Source: Archaeoglobus profundus DSM 5631 (GTDB lineage Archaea; Halobacteriota; Archaeoglobi; Archaeoglobales; Archaeoglobaceae). Taken from it: a stretch of DNA of 64,000 bases. Numbering within the stretch: position 1 is the first letter of the stretch; each line of letters starts with the position of its first letter. The stretch covers positions 434,001-498,000 of the forward strand of contig NC_013741.1 in the NCBI RefSeq assembly GCF_000025285.1. Direction: 5' to 3'. The notes under the pieces are model-generated. The model ran no database searches. It was not told the DNA's origin and saw nothing but the letters and a program-made list of their open reading frames with translations. Both the position numbers and the translations under genes were made by a program. Positions 35,239-51,093 of this stretch are shown piece after piece.

Positions 35239-36378
35239 TCATTTTGTAGCGTAGTGTATCTTTTTTAAGCTTTTTAAGGCGATTAGGTAGGCTGAAGCGG
35301 TATGTCTATCGAGACCATATTTTTTCATAATTTTCTCGTGTTCTTTAGAGCGTGTAGTTCCTTTTGGGTTTACGTAGATTGTTTTTAGACCGTATAGTGG
35401 TGTCTTGTACGCTATAGTCTCTATTATTCTGTTTCTAAAAATTGATGTTCTGTAATTATAATTTTTAGTTTTTCTATTACCATTTTTTATCCAGTAATAC
35501 TTTAAGTAACCGACAATTTCTGGATTTTCCAATACTACGTGTGATACTCCGTGATGGTAGGCGTAGTTCAGCATGTCGTGTATTGCTTGGTATATTTTCG
35601 TCCACGCTCGCTTTCTCCTATATCCACGACTGGTTATTTCTCTAAACCAAAACGTTTTAACGTCTCTTAACCTACCGTATCTGTCTACTATAGCTATATT
35701 TAGCCTGTCGACATTAACGTCTATTCCTGCAACGTGATTTCCGAGAGGAGCATCGTATTTTCTCATAACCTCTAAATACAGGTCGTACGGTACCATTACC
35801 TGCAGGCTACAGTAAAGGCGTAGGTCATTTAAGTGGGTGTTGTATTCTTTAATGACAATTCTAGCAGGATACCCTACTTCACTCTTTATTGCTCTTTCTA
35901 CGAGTATCTTCAACAGTTTCTCGTATTTTTTAGGAGTTCTTAAATTTATTTTTATTTTTCTCGGTTCTCTTTCCTGATTGAATACCAATGCTTCTGCTTC
36001 CCTAGTCGACGTTAATCTTACGTTTAGATTTCCTTTCTTCTTTTTATCCGCTTCACACTGGAATAAGAGCCATTGTCTCAACTTTATCTCGTTCACTTTT
36101 AAACCCAGCTTACGAGCACTCTTGAGCGTTGAGTGTATTAATACAGCTATACCATCTACGTATCTACGGTTCGGAAGTACGTCGTAGCACCTTTTACGTG
36201 CATACTTGAGAAAACTCGTTTGCGATAGGTCTACTAGTATTTCATTTTCCTTTGCGTCGTTCAGAAGTCTGTGAGCGCAAAACTTAGAGAACCAAGCTGT
36301 CCACCAAACTAACCTAGCTTTTTCACCGGTAACCGTGAACGGTATGTCGACGGTGACTGGTCGATTCAACACGATCAC
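35239..36378 (-). CDS. tnpB: TnpB RNA-guided nuclease-like protein (IS605 OrfB), zinc finger lost
   Basis: This 379-residue protein has a RuvC-type core: Asp220 in VAGIDVNVDRLNIAIVD, Glu284 in HVVLENPEIVG and Asp357 in GLDRHTASAYLIALKSL, the three acidic residues of an active TnpB site. The four-cysteine zinc ribbon that normally lies between the last two is absent; after TIYVNPKGTTRSKEH comes MKKYGLDRHT. The N-terminal half contains the basic target- and RNA-binding part. The GTG at 36378 or the third-codon GTG is the start, with AGGTG overlapping it. An omega-type guide RNA would be expected over its 3' end. Confidence 0.82.
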   Translation of the reverse strand: MIVLNRPVTVDIPFTVTGEKARLVWWTAWFSKFCAHRLLNDAKENEILVDLSQTSFLKYARKRCYDVLPNRRYVDGIAVLIHSTLKSARKLGLKVNEIKLRQWLLFQCEADKKKKGNLNVRLTSTREAEALVFNQEREPRKIKINLRTPKKYEKLLKILVERAIKSEVGYPARIVIKEYNTHLNDLRLYCSLQVMVPYDLYLEVMRKYDAPLGNHVAGIDVNVDRLNIAIVDRYGRLRDVKTFWFREITSRGYRRKRAWTKIYQAIHDMLNYAYHHGVSHVVLENPEIVGYLKYYWIKNGNRKTKNYNYRTSIFRNRIIETIAYKTPLYGLKTIYVNPKGTTRSKEHEKIMKKYGLDRHTASAYLIALKSLKKIHYATK

Positions 36379-43682: not shown

Positions 43683-44056
43683 TTTTTCACCAGAGTTATT
43701 ATATCAATATTTAGCCTGAATGTCTCGACCGTGTTAATTATCACATCTTTACCTATGTACGTACCTAAAGAGTTGGCGAGGCTTTCCGAGAAGACGACTT
43801 CTCCGTTTTGGGAATACTCGAAACCCTCCATGTTTGGCTCAAGCCCGATTACTCGGTAGCTCTCTCTGAAGAAGAACGGTTTAGCTCTTTCACCTAAAAA
43901 TCTTATTTTTGCATAGGTTTCGTTAGCTATTATCGATGTGTTGGAGTATATAGCGTCTATATTTATCCCAATCTCGTTCTTTTCGAGTTCCGGGCTAAAC
44001 CCACCGACCTTGCTTACGTACAGATCCGTGGCAACCTCTATCGGGTATGCGAACAT
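43643..44056 (-). CDS. Hypothetical protein upstream of nip7
   Basis: This is a 137-residue soluble protein rich in beta segments: MFAYPIEVATDLYVSKVGG, NEIGINIDAIYSNTSIIANE and AKIRFLGERAKPFFFRESYR. No family is recognised. It is clearly a gene because its frame is clean, it overlaps nip7 and the codon use resembles the neighbours. A role in RNA processing is only suggested by the neighbour. The last 14 codons overlap nip7. Confidence 0.6.
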   Translation of the reverse strand: MFAYPIEVATDLYVSKVGGFSPELEKNEIGINIDAIYSNTSIIANETYAKIRFLGERAKPFFFRESYRVIGLEPNMEGFEYSQNGEVVFSESLANSLGTYIGKDVIINTVETFRLNIDIITLVKKCLESQRGEKRRL

Positions 44057-44548
44057 CGAAATTTATCATGATTTGTCACTTGATATGCCTTTTGGTTGTT
44101 ACAAAACGTCGCTAAGAAAGCCCCGCTCTTTACAGTAGATCAGAAAGTGTGTTGGTCATAAGGTTATGATGTAACAAACAATTAATAGGAGTATGACAAT
44201 TTAAAGAAGTAACGAATATTCATTAGGATTGAGTATGGGCTAATATGCTATACTATTTAACGAAGGGAGTTAGCGAAAAGATACGGCGATGTAAAATACA
44301 TCTACAGGATTAGACTGATAAAGACTTACGCAAAGCCCAATAACGGCAAAATCCTTACTCTTTTTAATTTTGTTTGATTTTTTAATTGTCGAAGTCTAAG
44401 GCTCTCGAGCTCGTTATTAATTTTCGACAATTAGTTAACTACCTCAATTAAGTTTTTCTTAGCTGATGGGATTTTTATTCTGTTAACGTTAAAAAAATAA
44501 AGTAAAGTATTTAATGTATCTTCTGTAGCATCTATAGAGGTGTAAAAA
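44057..44548. other. 490-base intergenic stretch with an inverted repeat and a short protein-like patch
   Basis: It contains an 11-bp perfect inverted repeat, TAATTGTCGAA (44383-44393) and TTCGACAATTA (44423-44433), around CTCGAGCTCG. At about 44270-44370 the plus strand reads ELAKRYGDVKYIYRIRLIKT without a start codon, probably a gene remnant. The AT-rich part before 44549, with GTTAACGTTAA and a TATA-like TATTTAATG, probably holds the promoter of the next gene. Nothing else was recognised. Confidence 0.5.
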
Positions 44549-45286
44549 ATGGATGAAATAAAGCCACTAAGAGAATTAGACTTCAAAACAATTAGAGAAG
44601 AGTGGATGAATATACAATTGGAGGACGGTACAGTCATTAGATTTAAATCTGTTTTAGTTAGAGTGTTTGAAACTGGACGACATGATCCTATAACAGGAGA
44701 GCCCATATACCATGTAGAAGGTCAGAACATAGTAGTTGCAAGGGCTCCTGATGAATTAAAAGGTGCCCCCTCTGATTTTATACCACCAATACCAGAGTTA
44801 GTGAAGAAAAAGAAACCTATAGAAGTTAAAATAAAGGGTATTACTGGTGACGAATGGAACGAATATGAATTAGAAACTGGAAAGAGAATTAAGACGAAAA
44901 CTGTAATTACTAAGGTTCTAAGAATAGATGGATATTACGATAGGTATGGTAATCCAATATATATAGTCCAATCACAAATGATTGCTACAAGCAGTCCTAC
45001 TCGGCATAAAGTAGTACCCAAACAACATGAATCTATTACATATATAAGTCCTGATAAACTTATAGTGTGCGTATTCTCCAGAAGTGAAGGAATAACAAGA
45101 GTTGATTCTACTAATGAGTACAGCTTTTCTGGGTACGGATACAACATTAACGATCCAATTAGTGAGTCTAATCCTCATAGAGGTTGGAAGATTAGTCCAG
45201 AAAAGCTTGATTTACTGTTATTAGTTCAAAAGACTCTTGAAAAAGATTGGTACTCGAAGGAGGATGAATTTTGGGATGATTATTGA
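44549..45286 (+). CDS. Hypothetical protein with a duplicated domain, upstream of a MazF-like toxin
   Basis: This 245-residue protein has two similar units. Unit 1 (about 20-72): IQLEDGTVIRFKSVLVRVFE, then RHDPITGEPIYHVEGQNIVV. Unit 2 (about 98-150): YELETGKRIKTKTVITKVLR, then YYDRYGNPIYIVQSQMIATS. Both end in a YxxxGxPIY turn and a beta strand. The C-terminal 90 residues are unrelated. The MazF-like gene overlaps its stop, so it sits where an antitoxin would be, but it resembles no antitoxin known to me. No family is recognised. Confidence 0.7.
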   Translation: MDEIKPLRELDFKTIREEWMNIQLEDGTVIRFKSVLVRVFETGRHDPITGEPIYHVEGQNIVVARAPDELKGAPSDFIPPIPELVKKKKPIEVKIKGITGDEWNEYELETGKRIKTKTVITKVLRIDGYYDRYGNPIYIVQSQMIATSSPTRHKVVPKQHESITYISPDKLIVCVFSRSEGITRVDSTNEYSFSGYGYNINDPISESNPHRGWKISPEKLDLLLLVQKTLEKDWYSKEDEFWDDY

Positions 45287-45632
45287 ACAAAGAGATATTG
45301 TGCTAATTCATTTTCCATTTACGGATTTAAGCAGAACAAAAAAGAGACCTGTATTGGTTGTTTCGTCAGACGAATTTAACAGACTAAGTGAGGATGTTAT
45401 AGTCGTTCAGATTACCTCAAATTTAAGAAGTGGTTTTGAAGAATATAATGTTAGAATTAGTAACGATGATTTGGAGATCTGCTACGGGAAACCTATAATC
45501 CCAAGTATAGTGAAACCATACATAATCTTCTCTCTTGATAAAGGATTAATAATCAAGAAGATCGGAAAACTAAATGAAGATAAATTCCGAGAAGTTTTAG
45601 AAAAACTAAAAGAAGTTATTTTTCCTCAATGA
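45276..45632 (+). CDS. MazF/PemK-like toxin
   Basis: This is a type II toxin-fold endoribonuclease candidate of about 118 residues: IEQRDIVLIHFPFTDLSRTK, KKRPVLVVSSDEFNRLSEDV, VVQITSNLRSGFEEYNVRIS and IPSIVKPYIIFSLDKGLI. These match the beta-barrel of PemK/MazF, with the RP and the later Ser/Thr of the active site. The ATG at 45276 is chosen because the domain begins there; the longer frame from 45237 adds 13 unrelated residues. It overlaps the upstream gene by 11 bases, a typical toxin-antitoxin arrangement. Confidence 0.85.
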   Translation: MIIEQRDIVLIHFPFTDLSRTKKRPVLVVSSDEFNRLSEDVIVVQITSNLRSGFEEYNVRISNDDLEICYGKPIIPSIVKPYIIFSLDKGLIIKKIGKLNEDKFREVLEKLKEVIFPQ

Positions 45633-45929
45633 CTTCTTTAATAACGCCCTTCTCCCTCAGCCTCTTGACTCCTCTAACGAATCTTTCGTAACTTAGGAAC
45701 TCTCTATGCTTCTTTTCGAAATCGGCTTTCATGATAGCCCCAAATAGCTTTCCAGCTTAATCCTTGAGGTCTGTACTTCTTGACGTATTGTAGAATTTCC
45801 TCATCACAGAATGGTCGTGAACTGCATCTTCACTTCTACGAAAAACATTTACCATCGGAAGCATTTGAGGAAACTTGGAATAAATATGTGGGATTAATAA
45901 AAGAGATATTAAGCATAATTAAAGTTTAA
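45617..45929. pseudogene. Two gene remnants between mazF and the transposase
   Basis: On the minus strand, 45733 to 45617 reads MKADFEKKHREFLSYERFVR and GVKRLREKGVIKEV; a different frame just upstream reads EEILQYVKKYRPQGLSWKA, so this is a frameshifted remnant. On the plus strand, about 45820 to 45929 reads FYEKHLPSEAFEETWNKYVG and ends IIKV at a stop overlapping the transposase end. Neither has a usable start. Both look like C-terminal pieces of genes cut by insertion or deletion. Confidence 0.5.
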
Positions 45930-47077
45930 CCGTAGTCAACCTGAAATTGAAAAATCAAGGTACCAATAATCTTAGCAGTAACTACAGGTTTCATCTCATT
46001 AAAGATTAGACATAGGGTGATATTTACTAAAATCCATAAATTATATAAGCAAAGGGAGAATAGGAAGTAGAATAACCTAACAGAGATGTTTTTAGAAGTG
46101 GTTTTGGCTCTGAAATCCTTTGAGACTCTGTAAGCGGTTTCAATTCCCCATCTTCTTCTGAATAATTCAGCATAACCGATAGCATTCTTCTCGTTAACTG
46201 GAAGATTAGTAACGAAACAGACTTTATCGTTATTAACCCTTGATGGAACAATGAAGAGATTAACAGTCTCTTTACCAGGTGGTTTTCTCTTACGCCACAT
46301 TTGATAATTCCTCACAACTATAACATCCTTGTCCTTGTTCTCATCAAGGATTTTTCTTATCGTAGAGCTTCTTAAAGCTTGAATAATGAATTTCAACCCA
46401 AGTTTCTTCAAAATCCTAATGTATTCCATGTCGTAAAAATGTCTGTCCAAATAGACCCTCTTAATCTTAATCCTGCTCATTGCATGCTTAAGCAACTCTT
46501 CAAACACTTTATATCGATCCTTAAACTCTTTCAAAGGCAAAGCCTTTAGATGAAACCTCTTACCGTTCTCAACAATGCAGATCGTCATGAACTTGTAAGC
46601 TTTGTGGGTACCCTGTTTCGGTTGTGTTCCGATGACATAATCACCCCACTTCCCGTAATATAGCCAATCGTGTATATCTATCGCTACATCAACTGGATTC
46701 CTGAATTTTCCCTTCCTCTTAGCATCTTCTAATAGCTTATCAAACACTAAATCAAATTGAGTTATAATCTCTTCAATACTTAACTTCCTTAAGTGGTAAA
46801 GGAGTGTATCGGCTGAAGGAGCTTTATTCCTTAACAACCTATATGTTCTCGAACCATTCGTAGCAAAATCCTTCGTAATCGCAATGTAAGTTAAGAAATC
46901 AAGAAAGTCTTCAGTAGTGTAAATGCAGTTGTAGTTTAATTTAAGGTCAATATGAGTATAAACAAGCCTTTTCACATTTCTACAGACTTCTCTAACACAA
47001 ATTCTTTCGAAAATCTTATCAATATTCCTACTTACCTTTACCTTGGAGCTGGTCTGGTATCCTCGGGGGCGGGGCAT
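45926..47077 (-). CDS. ISH3-like DDE transposase
   Basis: This 383-residue transposase has an apparently intact DDE site: Asp in VDVAIDIHDWLYYGKWGD, Asp in RVYLDRHFYDMEYI and Glu in RRRWGIETAYRVSKDFR (Y1-type RRRWxIE signature). It belongs with the ISH3 group of archaeal IS4-type elements. The ATG at 47077 lies inside strong inverted repeats, which may hide the start in read-through RNA. I could not find matching terminal repeats on both sides, so the element limits are left open. Confidence 0.85.
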   Translation of the reverse strand: MPRPRGYQTSSKVKVSRNIDKIFERICVREVCRNVKRLVYTHIDLKLNYNCIYTTEDFLDFLTYIAITKDFATNGSRTYRLLRNKAPSADTLLYHLRKLSIEEIITQFDLVFDKLLEDAKRKGKFRNPVDVAIDIHDWLYYGKWGDYVIGTQPKQGTHKAYKFMTICIVENGKRFHLKALPLKEFKDRYKVFEELLKHAMSRIKIKRVYLDRHFYDMEYIRILKKLGLKFIIQALRSSTIRKILDENKDKDVIVVRNYQMWRKRKPPGKETVNLFIVPSRVNNDKVCFVTNLPVNEKNAIGYAELFRRRWGIETAYRVSKDFRAKTTSKNISVRLFYFLFSLCLYNLWILVNITLCLIFNEMKPVVTAKIIGTLIFQFQVDYG

Positions 47078-47121
47078 GCCAGATCAGCTCCTGCCCGAGG
47101 GTGGTGGGGGCACCCTCGGGC
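47045..47121. repeat. Nested GC-rich inverted repeats at the transposase start
   Basis: GGAGCTGGTCTGGTAT (47045-47060) pairs with ATGCCAGATCAGCTCC (47076-47091) at 14 of 16 positions, enclosing the transposase start codon. Immediately right, GCCCGAGGGTG (47093-47103) pairs perfectly with CACCCTCGGGC (47111-47121). Both are much more GC-rich than the flanks. In a transcript reading in from outside, the two hairpins would form and block translation of the transposase; this is known from other insertion sequences and is inferred here. Confidence 0.7.
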
Positions 47122-47232
47122 GCTCTTTTACCATTTGCTTTACCATTCACCATTTACTATCCACACTATTTAAGGTTTTTGGTGTAACTATATCTGGTTA
47201 ATTCATAACTAAATATAGTAGAAAAGTGTTAT

Positions 47233-47255
47233 ATACTATAATAGGTAAATAGTAT
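47233..47255. promoter_or_regulatory. Inverted repeat at the promoter of the winged-helix gene
   Basis: ATACTAT (47233-47239) and ATAGTAT (47249-47255) form a 7-bp inverted repeat with a 9-base spacer, overlapping the TATA-like GTTATATACT and lying directly before the start of the winged-helix gene. It could be an autoregulatory site for that protein. Confidence 0.45.
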
Positions 47256-47267
47256 GTGGTGATCAGT

Positions 47268-47975
47268 ATGGCAAGGGTTGGAGTTTATAGATATCCAGAT
47301 ATCTCATTGAAAGAAGCAGTGAGTGATTTAGATAAGATTAAGAGATTCTTAGGGAAGAAAGTGGATGGAGAAATTACTAGAGAAGCTATTGCCAAAGCTC
47401 TAGGCTTAACTCCAAGAGGTGGCAGATTTACAAATAAGATAGCTTCATTGATCCATTATGGATTCTTAGAAAGTGCTGGTGATGGTAAAGTTAAGTTAAC
47501 GGAGTTAGCAAAAGAAATTCTTTATCCAATTGGAAACTCTGACATTGAGGCAATGAAAAAAGCCTTTTTCAGTATTCAGTTATTCAAAGATCTTTATGAG
47601 CAATATGGAGATTCAGTAACAGTAGAGCAAATAGAGTGGTTTTTAAGAGCAAAAGCAAATGCAGATCCGAGAGAGGCAAAAGAGAAGGCACGAAAAATCC
47701 ACAAAATTTATATAGAGGGACTCACACAAATATTTAGTGTAGAAAAACAAGAGGAGCAGATTTCTGAAGAGATTCTTGATAGAGGTGAGGAAATCATGAT
47801 GGAAAGAGAAGTGTTAAAACAGCCAGAAGGTATTGAAGAAATTAAGTTCGGAGATGTAAGAATATGGCTACCACCGACAGAAGAAGGTGTTAAAATTGCA
47901 GAACAACTGATTAAGCTCTTTAAGGAAACTAGATTGAAAGTGAAAGAGGTTAAAGAAGAAGAAAAAGAAGAATAG
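47268..47975 (+). CDS. Winged-helix protein paired with the N6-adenine methylase
   Basis: This is a soluble protein of about 235 residues. Residues 30-90 look like a winged helix: VDGEITREAIAKALGLTPRG, RFTNKIASLIHYGFLESAGD and GKVKLTELAKEILYPIG. Residues 90-160 are helical and the end is acidic and Lys-rich. The ATG at 47268 gives MARVGVYRYPDISL; GTG 47256 is an alternative. The methylase gene follows after 66 bases on the same strand with its own TATA box. It may be a repressor or a protein partner of the methylase; no name can be given. Confidence 0.7.
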   Translation: MARVGVYRYPDISLKEAVSDLDKIKRFLGKKVDGEITREAIAKALGLTPRGGRFTNKIASLIHYGFLESAGDGKVKLTELAKEILYPIGNSDIEAMKKAFFSIQLFKDLYEQYGDSVTVEQIEWFLRAKANADPREAKEKARKIHKIYIEGLTQIFSVEKQEEQISEEILDRGEEIMMEREVLKQPEGIEEIKFGDVRIWLPPTEEGVKIAEQLIKLFKETRLKVKEVKEEEKEE

Positions 47976-48041
47976 GAGAATAAAGAGTAATAAGAATTTA
48001 TGGAAAAAAGTTTTTAAATTCTCCATTTTTTACACTCTTTA

Positions 48042-50825
48042 ATGAGGTATGTTTTTGAAAATAGATTAAATGTGCTTTTATCGGAGCTTCTCAATGAATT
48101 AGGTGTAATTTCCTATAGTGAGCAGTTAGGTCGTCGGGTACGTAGAGATATAGTTGTATATCATCAGGGATTAAGAATAATTTTAGAAGGATCATATAAT
48201 AGAGAAGATGCTGAAAGAGATGCTAAAAGAAGGATTGAACAACTTTTAGCTGATTTAGCTATAGCGATCCACTATCCAAGAATCCCAGATGCTACTGATA
48301 AAGAACTTAAGGAGAGATTAAAGTCGATTAGATTTTATGCTAAGGTTATAGTTCCTGTAGACATTTCTGGCACTCTCTACGAGTTCCTGTGGCAGAAAAG
48401 AGTTATCGCTAAACCTGTCGAGGATTGGATAGAGGTAAATCTAAATCTATTGGCAAATTTAATAAGAGAGTCAGCCCAGTTCATTATAAGCGAGGAGCAT
48501 GTTAAGCAAGTGGAAAACAAGGTTGACAGCTTTATTAATGATTGGGTTCAATTATTGGTCAATCATCCTCATTCAAACACAATTGCTAGAAATTTATATG
48601 ATGTTCTTCTCAAATTATATGGGTTCTCCATAGGAGACCCACAGAGAATAAAAGAAGTAATATTTGCTCAATCTGGTCTTGCTTTACTTTTAAGTGCTGT
48701 ATATTATGAATCTGTTAGATATGCTCATGACTTGAAATCCTTATTTGAGTTAAGTGAAAAAACCGATGCTCAATCAGCCTTAAGAAGAGCTATTGTTGAA
48801 ATTCTCAAAATAAATTATCAACCAATTTTTAATACGGCATTGGCAATTTTAGATTGTCTTCCTCCAATGCATAGGAAATTTGAACACTTAATTGATCTTG
48901 CAACGGAGATTGCTTCAAAAAGATCGCTACTTAGGAGGGATATTGCTGGCAAAATTTACCATAAGATTGTTGGTGATTGGAGCCTTAGAAAAGGTTTAGC
49001 AACTTTTTACACACAAATACCTGCTGCCTATTTACTACTACATTTGGCGAAACCAACATTATCAAGAATTTGTGACTTTGCATGTGGTAGTGGTACTCTT
49101 CTGACGGCTGCATATAGTGCTGCAAGGACTCAGTATGGTTTATCGTTGTTAGAACAGGGAGTGGATAAAGATCCAAGAGAAATCGATGAGGAATTTCATA
49201 AAGCTTTCATAAAATCTTGCTATGGGATAGATGTTCTAAAGTATGCAACACAAGTCACAGCTATAAATCTAGCACTTCATAGCCCAGAAACTCCACTTGA
49301 TGAGTTTAACATCTATACGTTGCCTTTAGGTCTTAGAGAGAAGAATGGTATGGTATCTTTAGGTTCTTTAGAATTTGCAAGAACTGCTGTAAGATTAGAT
49401 CAAATATTATATGGAGAAAAAGCTACGAAAATAGGATTAACTAAGGAGGAAGAGAAGTTGATAAAATTAGAACCATTCAAGTTCATTGTTATGAATCCGC
49501 CATTTACAAGAGCTACTGGTAGAGGTGGAAGAGAAGGTGGCGGATTATTTGGTTTTATAGCAGATGAAACTGCAAGAGAAAGAGTTCGTTCAGATTATGA
49601 TAGACTAAGAGATGATATCAGAAATCAACTCTTAAAGATTGGAACTAGATGTTTATATGGTACAGACCTTAGATTCCTCCTTGAGGAACGTGAATATAGG
49701 TCAATAGGTCAAGCTGGTGAAGGTTTATTGTTCTTATATTTGGCATACAAAATGCTAGAGGACAATGGTAAGATTTGTTTTGTTTTACCCAAAAGTCTCT
49801 TGTCTGGAGTTTCATGGTTCTTAGCAAGAACCTTATTGGCTTCAGAGTTCCATACAGAGTATATTATCGTAAGCTATGATTCAGAAGGAGGTTATAATTT
49901 CTCAGAGTCTACAAGCTTAAGTGAGCTTCTTTTGGTAGCAAAGAAGACTAAAGAGCATTCAGATGATGAAAAAACAAAATTTGTGTTATTATTAAAGAAG
50001 CCTAGAACAAGCATCGAAGCTATAGCTCTTGCCAATCAAATTGACAGAGGGGAGGAATATGTAGAAGCAGGAAATGCTCAAGCTTTTGTTATAAGCGTTG
50101 ATAGAAAAACTCTCCTGAAATACATTGATAATTGGGGAAGATTTGTGTTTCTACCAAATACCTACCTCATAAAAGAGATATTAGACATTTTAAGAGGTGT
50201 AATAAGAGTTGGAAACATTAAGATTGAGATACCAATAACTAAATTGAACAATTTAATTTCATCAATTGGAATTGACCGCCATCAATTCCATGATCATTTC
50301 CAGAGAGTTTTAAGACAAATTCCTGGAAGCATGCCTGCAGTCTACGGAGGTGGAGAAGAAGTTAGAGGAAAAATGGTGATATCACCAAATGCCTATGTTA
50401 AACCAAAAACTCAGAGAGCTAGGACTATATTTAGAGAAAAAGCAGGACGGCTTCTATTACCAGATAGAATTAGAGTTAACACAGCTCATGTAATTTCGAT
50501 GCTTTCTGATACGCCAGTTCTGTCGAACATATTTTATGCTGTTAGACTTAGAGATGAAGATGAAAATAAGCTGAAAGCCCTTTGTTTATGGTTTAACACG
50601 ACTTGGGGAATCTTAACAGTACTAGCAAATAGAGAGGAAACAGAAGGTGCTTTTATAAGTCTAAAAATGAGCCATTGGAAGACAATCCCAGCATTGGATG
50701 TTGATAACCTACCAGAGGACAGATTAAAGGAATTAGCAAATGTTTATGACCAGTTTGGGGAGGCTAACTTCAAAAGGCTACATGAACAAAGTTATTCTCC
50801 TATCCATTGTCTCATTGATGTATAA
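48042..50825 (+). CDS. N6-adenine DNA methyltransferase (restriction-type), 3' end in an invertible segment
   Basis: This is a 927-residue protein. Residues 1-110 include RRDIVVYHQGLRIILEGSYN, which resembles a nuclease-like fold (PD-(D/E)XK pattern with Ser in place of Lys). SAM motif I is RICDFACGSGTLLTAAYSA near residue 343 and the adenine motif is KFIVMNPPFTRATGRGG near residue 485. The remaining 430 residues would hold the target-recognition part. As written, the last 11 residues (SYSPIHCLIDV) look unnatural. The 137-bp segment carrying them is flanked by 47-bp inverted repeats. Flipped, it adds an in-frame tail of 44 residues with RIELDLAFLKALG. The ATG follows TTTTTAAATTC by about 26 bases. 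Confidence 0.88.
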   Translation: MRYVFENRLNVLLSELLNELGVISYSEQLGRRVRRDIVVYHQGLRIILEGSYNREDAERDAKRRIEQLLADLAIAIHYPRIPDATDKELKERLKSIRFYAKVIVPVDISGTLYEFLWQKRVIAKPVEDWIEVNLNLLANLIRESAQFIISEEHVKQVENKVDSFINDWVQLLVNHPHSNTIARNLYDVLLKLYGFSIGDPQRIKEVIFAQSGLALLLSAVYYESVRYAHDLKSLFELSEKTDAQSALRRAIVEILKINYQPIFNTALAILDCLPPMHRKFEHLIDLATEIASKRSLLRRDIAGKIYHKIVGDWSLRKGLATFYTQIPAAYLLLHLAKPTLSRICDFACGSGTLLTAAYSAARTQYGLSLLEQGVDKDPREIDEEFHKAFIKSCYGIDVLKYATQVTAINLALHSPETPLDEFNIYTLPLGLREKNGMVSLGSLEFARTAVRLDQILYGEKATKIGLTKEEEKLIKLEPFKFIVMNPPFTRATGRGGREGGGLFGFIADETARERVRSDYDRLRDDIRNQLLKIGTRCLYGTDLRFLLEEREYRSIGQAGEGLLFLYLAYKMLEDNGKICFVLPKSLLSGVSWFLARTLLASEFHTEYIIVSYDSEGGYNFSESTSLSELLLVAKKTKEHSDDEKTKFVLLLKKPRTSIEAIALANQIDRGEEYVEAGNAQAFVISVDRKTLLKYIDNWGRFVFLPNTYLIKEILDILRGVIRVGNIKIEIPITKLNNLISSIGIDRHQFHDHFQRVLRQIPGSMPAVYGGGEEVRGKMVISPNAYVKPKTQRARTIFREKAGRLLLPDRIRVNTAHVISMLSDTPVLSNIFYAVRLRDEDENKLKALCLWFNTTWGILTVLANREETEGAFISLKMSHWKTIPALDVDNLPEDRLKELANVYDQFGEANFKRLHEQSYSPIHCLIDV

Positions 50826-50973
50826 ATCTCCTCATAAAGAGATATTAGATCATTTTCGTTTACTTTTGCACCTAAAGCTTTTAGAAATGCTAAATCTAAT
50901 TCGATTCTAGATTCATCTTCACCAAATTGTTCATGTAGCCTTTTGAAGTTAGCCTCCCCAAACTGGTCATAAA
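50743..50973. repeat. Invertible segment: perfect 47-bp inverted repeats around 137 bp
   Basis: The left arm is 50743-50789 and the right arm 50927-50973, identical over all 47 positions in opposite orientation. The left arm encodes YDQFGEANFKRLHEQ of the methylase. The spacer 50790-50926 codes on the plus strand for SYSPIHCLIDV and a stop. Read from the minus strand it codes for FGEDESRIELDLAFLKALG, LISLYEEIY, then a stop, in the frame that joins the repeat. Sequence outside the arms is not repeated, so this is not a simple fold-back artefact. No recombinase gene lies next to it. Confidence 0.85.
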
Positions 50974-51093
50974 AAACTTTACTTTAATTTTTATAAATTT
51001 TTATATCATATTAGGCACTTTCCGATCTACTGTTTAGTGCGGGGAGGATGTCAAAAGTACTATTATGAGGTCGCGTAAACACAATCTCTGACT

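Follow-up and report, generated by a model that had tools for sequence, protein, structure and literature searches.

The 3′ end of an N6-adenine DNA methylase gene in the hyperthermophilic archaeon Archaeoglobus profundus AV18T (DSM 5631) lies backwards in the chromosome: a 137-nt spacer, enclosed by two perfect 47-bp inverted repeats, carries the true end of the gene in reverse orientation. The reference allele is a derived, truncated form, and the flipped form, which encodes a complete enzyme, is the ancestral one. Whether the inversion recurs in living populations, so that the segment works as a reversible ON/OFF contingency switch, is a proposal to which we give an even chance. The DNA analysed, referred to here as the window, is a stretch of 64,000 nt (chromosome positions 434001-498000), and coordinates are those of the window unless stated otherwise.

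The inverted repeat pair and the two frames of the spacer

The features of the segment are the following.

48042-50825, + strand: N6-adenine DNA methylase gene (type IIG/PglX-like), present truncated form, 927 aa (open reading frame; Pfam)
50743-50789, + strand: left 47-bp inverted repeat arm, coding, YDQFGEANFKRLHEQ
50790-50822, + strand: SYSPIHCLIDV, the present tail of 11 residues, which is antisense to the true one and has its stop codon at 50823-50825 (reading frame; codon scores are poor in all + strand frames of the spacer)
50795-50926, - strand: inverted 44 codons of the normal C-terminus, FGEDESRIELDLAFLKALGAKVNENDLISLYEEIYTSMRQWIGE, with the stop codon TAA at 50792-50794 on the - strand (alignment with homolog C-termini; codon score)
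50927-50973, - strand: right 47-bp inverted repeat arm, not part of the reading frame in either orientation
50974-51010, + strand: T-rich run that follows the right arm and probably terminates transcription of the methylase gene (read from the sequence)

The two arms are complementary at 47 of 47 positions and, with the 137 nt between them, make up a structure of 231 bp, the left arm being coding, all as the initial annotation had described it. By chance, the longest perfect inverted repeat had arms of 13-14 bp (10 mononucleotide shuffles of the window). In a background count that covered the window and 19 sampled 20-kb stretches, 444 kb of the genome together (masked N runs aside), no other perfect pair with arms longer than 16 bp was found within 3 kb. 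A check for further copies of the 47-bp repeat, which had been recommended from the start, found only these two in the genome, and the identity of the arm as the end of a mobile element was ruled out on this ground. An exact scan of IMG/VR for the arm sequence gave no match, and the search for an internal dyad in the arm, of the kind expected of a recombinase site, gave nothing above shuffles (150 of 200 shuffles were as good).

In the present orientation, the frame leaves the left arm as ...HEQ-SYSPIHCLIDV* and ends after 927 aa, with 11 residues and the stop codon coming from the spacer; the annotation had identified this frame correctly, and its count of 12 codons is that of 11 residues plus the stop. 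With the spacer flipped, the frame reads ...HEQ-FGEDESRIELDLAFLKALGAKVNENDLISLYEEIYTSMRQWIGE* and yields 960 aa, so that the 44 in-frame spacer residues and the stop inside the spacer that had been foreseen are both borne out. The junction between the left arm and the spacer is ...GGCTACATGAACAA followed by TTTGGTGAAG in the flipped orientation and ...GGCTACATGAACAA followed by AGTTATTCTC at present. The TAA of the flipped orientation precedes the right arm by 2 nt, so that the restored gene would depend on no outside sequence. As in invertons, inverted repeats flank a segment whose flip alters coding. The reversed spacer is stop-free in the gene's own frame, where its codon score is 21.3 (gene windows of equal size average 18), and the other five spacer frames all have negative scores. 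Because the reversed spacer still scores as coding, without stops, either the inversion is recent or the frame of the tail is still used.

The reversed spacer as the C-terminus of the family

The first homologs found in Archaeoglobi were proteins of 957-963 aa with a tail resembling the flipped one; the 88-residue end matched locus L016 with E = 7e-8, and the 44 residues alone matched locus L017 with E = 2e-5. A scan of genome contigs with the window protein alone found no relative, whereas a profile scan did, and the profile search of genomes contributed 80 more homolog loci. No near homolog was found in the GTDB collections, a protein scan of IMG/VR gave no match, and the plasmid and phage collections held only relatives of less than 30% identity. 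The closest homologs are 40-42% identical in protein and are aligned through the 44-residue tail. Indeed, the alignment of the nearest full-length homolog (L073, from Acidilobaceae) covers residues 1-957 of the 960-aa flipped form, and that of a Vulcanisaeta homolog (L077) extends to residue 958. In an alignment of 44 homolog ORFs, all full-length homologs extend well beyond the junction, and the rows ending before or at it are fragments of split or partial genes. Across the whole protein, approximately 45 columns are invariant or nearly so in 26 homologs; R968 and D972 of the L073 tail, which correspond to the R and D of ..SRIELD.. encoded by the flipped spacer, are two of them. Structure prediction was made on L073, as the closest homolog, standing in for the flipped protein. 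In the resulting AlphaFold model (pTM 0.87), which has fold matches to BpuSI, BrxX, CamA and MmeI, the tail forms two helices that are among the best-defined parts (pLDDT 94-97); judging from this model, the reference protein is predicted to lack the last two helices of the C-terminal domain.

The homolog alignment, the conserved tail, the predicted helices and the codon score together identify the spacer as the true 3′ end reversed, and the reference allele as a derived truncation. From this conservation, the reference allele is probably an OFF form, either inactive or altered. The comparison upheld the view that the family naturally ends in the alternative tail, and no full-length homolog ending like the short form turned up. 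What had been presented as a swap of C-termini is better described as an alternation of an intact and a truncated (ON/OFF) protein, not of two working tails.

It could be argued instead that the short form is the working product, that the hairpin is a transcript-end structure stabilising or terminating the mRNA, and that the reversed tail is a relic. When the segment is folded as RNA, the two arms pair as a stem (-97.6 kcal/mol, z = -12.8), and the T-rich stretch lies 3′ of the right arm. However, any perfect inverted repeat would fold likewise, none of the full-length homologs ends at the junction, and the missing tail is both conserved and an integral part of the predicted fold, all of which makes this explanation very unlikely. 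The segment has no Rfam match either, and its identity as a known RNA element was rejected.

Some of the homolog loci have peculiarities of their own. The gene of Vulcanisaeta sp. JCM 16159 (L077, 4774-6998) is split into several frames, so it may be broken too, and another archaeon's homolog (L072, 2052-4872) consists of two overlapping ORFs, one of 715 aa and the other of 229 aa. At an Archaeoglobales locus (L015), a gene that matches the candidate defence family PDC-M33A (373-2169; 1.4e-32) lies upstream of the methylase homolog, at a distance of three genes.

The methylase and its genomic context

The initial identification of the protein as an archaeal N6-adenine methylase is borne out by Pfam matches to N6_Mtase (1e-9) and Eco57I (8.4e-6), and models of type I, type IIG and PglX enzymes also match it weakly. 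The gene is single-copy in the A. profundus genome, and its motifs DFACGSGT and NPPF are both intact. As in type IIG and PglX-like enzymes, a SAM-binding motif, the NPPF catalytic motif, a target-recognition region and C-terminal helices are found in one chain, the helices belonging to the flipped form only.

The genome of strain AV18T consists of a chromosome of 1,560,622 bases and a plasmid of 2,801 bp, making 1,563,423 bases with an overall G+C content of 42.0% (PMC3035285). The methylase gene is located at the edge of a region of about 35% G+C (44-51 kb), with flanks of 41-45%. This low-G+C island (44000-51000) contains a PemK/MazF-like toxin gene (45237-45632), before which lies a gene of 245 aa that matches no family, and, on the - strand, a DDE transposase (45926-47077); the base composition, together with the toxin and transposase genes, suggests that the island is probably acquired DNA. 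According to the ORF lists, and to a library comparison for part of the neighbours, the methylase is surrounded by these toxin and transposase genes, by housekeeping genes and by one gene of 239 aa that matches no family. The 239-aa gene, which lies upstream, has no homolog near the other methylases. No BREX partner genes (PglZ, BrxC or others) were noted beside the methylase in the ORF lists of the neighbourhood, which therefore does not qualify as a BREX locus. The closest homolog, L073, is solitary as well, among genes of other functions, and the methylase thus needs no obvious partner. Further away in the window, a TnpB-like gene was recognised by eye on the - strand (35239-36378).

Recurrent inversion or a single event

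In the mechanism that we propose, turning the last 44 codons around between two oppositely oriented copies of a 47-bp part of the gene would have given rise to the OFF form, and recombination or strand switching between the arms would flip the 137 bp and produce the complete 960-aa enzyme in one step, given that the stop codon lies just inside the arm. The arm pair was probably born by a fold-back or template-switch copy of the coding sequence, and the segment would be inverted either by a site-specific recombinase acting in trans or by general recombination between the 47-bp arms. In favor of switching, the repeat pair is perfect and unique, the flip restores exactly the family C-terminus and its stop, the frame of the reversed tail is intact, the genome has candidate recombinases, and inversion commonly affects restriction-modification genes (PMC5903667). 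Against it, there is a single site in the genome, the arm has no dyad above shuffles, a one-step template switch suffices for the structure, and no inversions were found in the six archaeal read sets of one survey (PMC5903667). At the homolog loci compared, no repeat pair was found across the 3′ end.

In a search of the genome for two recombinase families, the tyrosine family gave three hits and the serine family five; internal stops occur in two of these hits. The tyrosine recombinases are XerA-like, and the best NCBIfam match of the small serine recombinases is the Mpi invertase model, below its cut-off. The recombinase search that the annotation had called for has, therefore, provided candidates elsewhere in the genome and none adjacent: the nearest hit of the two families is about 237 kb from the segment, and no IS110/Piv recombinase was found in the genome. 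Neither the linked recombinase nor the recognisable arm site of invertons was found here. Since trans-acting recombinases are known in other systems, the absence of a linked enzyme lowers the case for switching and does not exclude it.

Another repeat was seen beside one of these candidates. A 205-aa serine recombinase, for which the Mpi invertase model is again the best match in NCBIfam (below cut-off), is followed directly downstream by a 25-bp perfect inverted repeat with copies 140 nt apart (L047, 2526-2550 and 2691-2715; chromosome ~722299-722488), built on the palindrome GAGTCAAG..CTTGACTC, with related copies at 735819-735864. These could be sites of that recombinase or a second invertible element.

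A different history would be a one-time template-switch mutation, in which a single break would have left the gene as a truncated allele resembling a pseudogene, a fossil; we place this somewhat short of an even chance. Briefly, at 50789 the polymerase would have moved across to the complementary strand, immediately beyond the stop codon, synthesised the tail and the 47 bp of coding sequence preceding it in reverse, and then resumed on its first template. With A standing for the arm, B for the tail and C for the flank downstream, such a path predicts A - rc(B) - rc(A) - C, which is exactly the order seen. In the homologs A and B are contiguous, and the locus displays an adjacent reverse-complement copy, perfect arms and four consistent switch points. 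The fact that the arms are ordinary coding sequence, with no dyad, no nearby recombinase and one site only, also fits. It is documented that template switching creates perfect inverted repeats in a single step and that it can invert a spacer while homogenising the arms (PMC8794818; PMC8604942). However, a 184-nt reverse copy is required, the described yeast coding events being much shorter; the start of the arm 2 nt after the stop codon is left unexplained; no microhomology is seen at either junction, assuming no loss of sequence; and such events are rarely kept here, considering that the 444 kb surveyed contain no other perfect inverted repeat above 16 bp. Moreover, an origin by template switching is compatible with later recombination between the 47-bp arms, so the two histories are not mutually exclusive: arms built by a switch may later recombine. 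The combination of both, namely a chromosomal ON/OFF invertible methylase C-terminus in a hyperthermophilic archaeon with arms from one template-switch event and with flipping by general recombination or by an archaeal recombinase acting in trans, which would represent an inverton near its origin and a possible archaeal methylation switch, is put forward as a tentative reading, possible rather than probable.

It was also considered that the structure might be an artefact of sequencing, cloning or assembly, the real gene being uninterrupted and the repeat the product of a fold-back chimera or a repeat misjoin. Fold-back chimeras do leave perfect inverted repeats, and the homologs carry the intact gene. 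Nevertheless, a 231-bp structure should fit inside one 454 Titanium read, and a chimera would need to dominate the consensus. An assembly error is made less likely by the finished state of the genome, obtained from 136x 454 and 30x Illumina coverage with paired-end libraries at an error rate below 1 in 100,000 (PMC3035285), and this explanation is considered quite unlikely. A masked N run was noticed elsewhere (L061, 9706-11856; chromosome ~754706-756856), near a tyrosine recombinase hit at 752715.

If the proposed flipping is true, the segment would constitute a phase-variable DNA methylase in an archaeal chromosome, extending methylation switches to hyperthermophiles. If there is no flipping, the locus would be a natural example of one replication error that both broke a gene and built the repeat pair to mend it, a case that bears on the origin of invertons.

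Comparison with known systems

The L073 fold and the methylase motifs liken the protein to the type IIG and BREX PglX/BrxX enzymes BpuSI (3s1s), BrxX (9ewz), MmeI (5hr4) and CamA (7lni), although identity to these is only 12-14% and the N-terminal nuclease-like motif seems, by eye, to lack the usual lysine.

A methylase switch at the 3′ end had been regarded as new by the initial annotation; recombination within methylase or specificity genes is already known in bacteria. With the inversion of type I hsdS genes, described for pneumococcal hsdS and PsrA, the A. profundus segment shares a restriction-modification gene and inverted repeats in coding sequence (PMC7096588). In that system, a dedicated recombinase is present at the locus and the flips swap target-recognition parts between hsdS genes (PMC7096588), whereas A. 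profundus has one gene, a 44-codon tail, no nearby recombinase and an alternation of intact and truncated forms. Among the relatives of type I methylases, four loci (L134, L137, L148 and L149) have long perfect inverted repeats of 25-248 bp, about 1.1-2.0 kb apart, and are likely hsdS inversion systems.

Template-switch mutations resemble the segment in that a single event gives perfect arms and an inverted spacer in coding DNA (PMC8604942, PMC8794818); the cases in the yeast coding set have arms of at most 16 bp and spacers of a few bp, in comparison with which the A. profundus one would be unusually long. In the haloarchaeal viruses phiH1, phiCh1 and ChaoS9, the inversion of archaeal DNA also alters protein sequence, but their tail-fibre modules are viral, carry the recombinase inside the module and swap two related fibre genes (PMC6471424). 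The archaeal precedents found for DNA inversion are viral.

Intragenic and partly intergenic invertons, in which an arm lies inside a gene and the flip changes or restores coding, were reportedly described by Chanin et al. in 2024 (Nature 634:234, cited in PMC11868660). In those invertons inversion was reportedly seen in reads, while the A. profundus segment is known from one assembled orientation; the present case differs, in addition, in being archaeal and in that its present form truncates a conserved C-terminus. If it flips, the segment would act like an intragenic inverton or an hsdS inversion.
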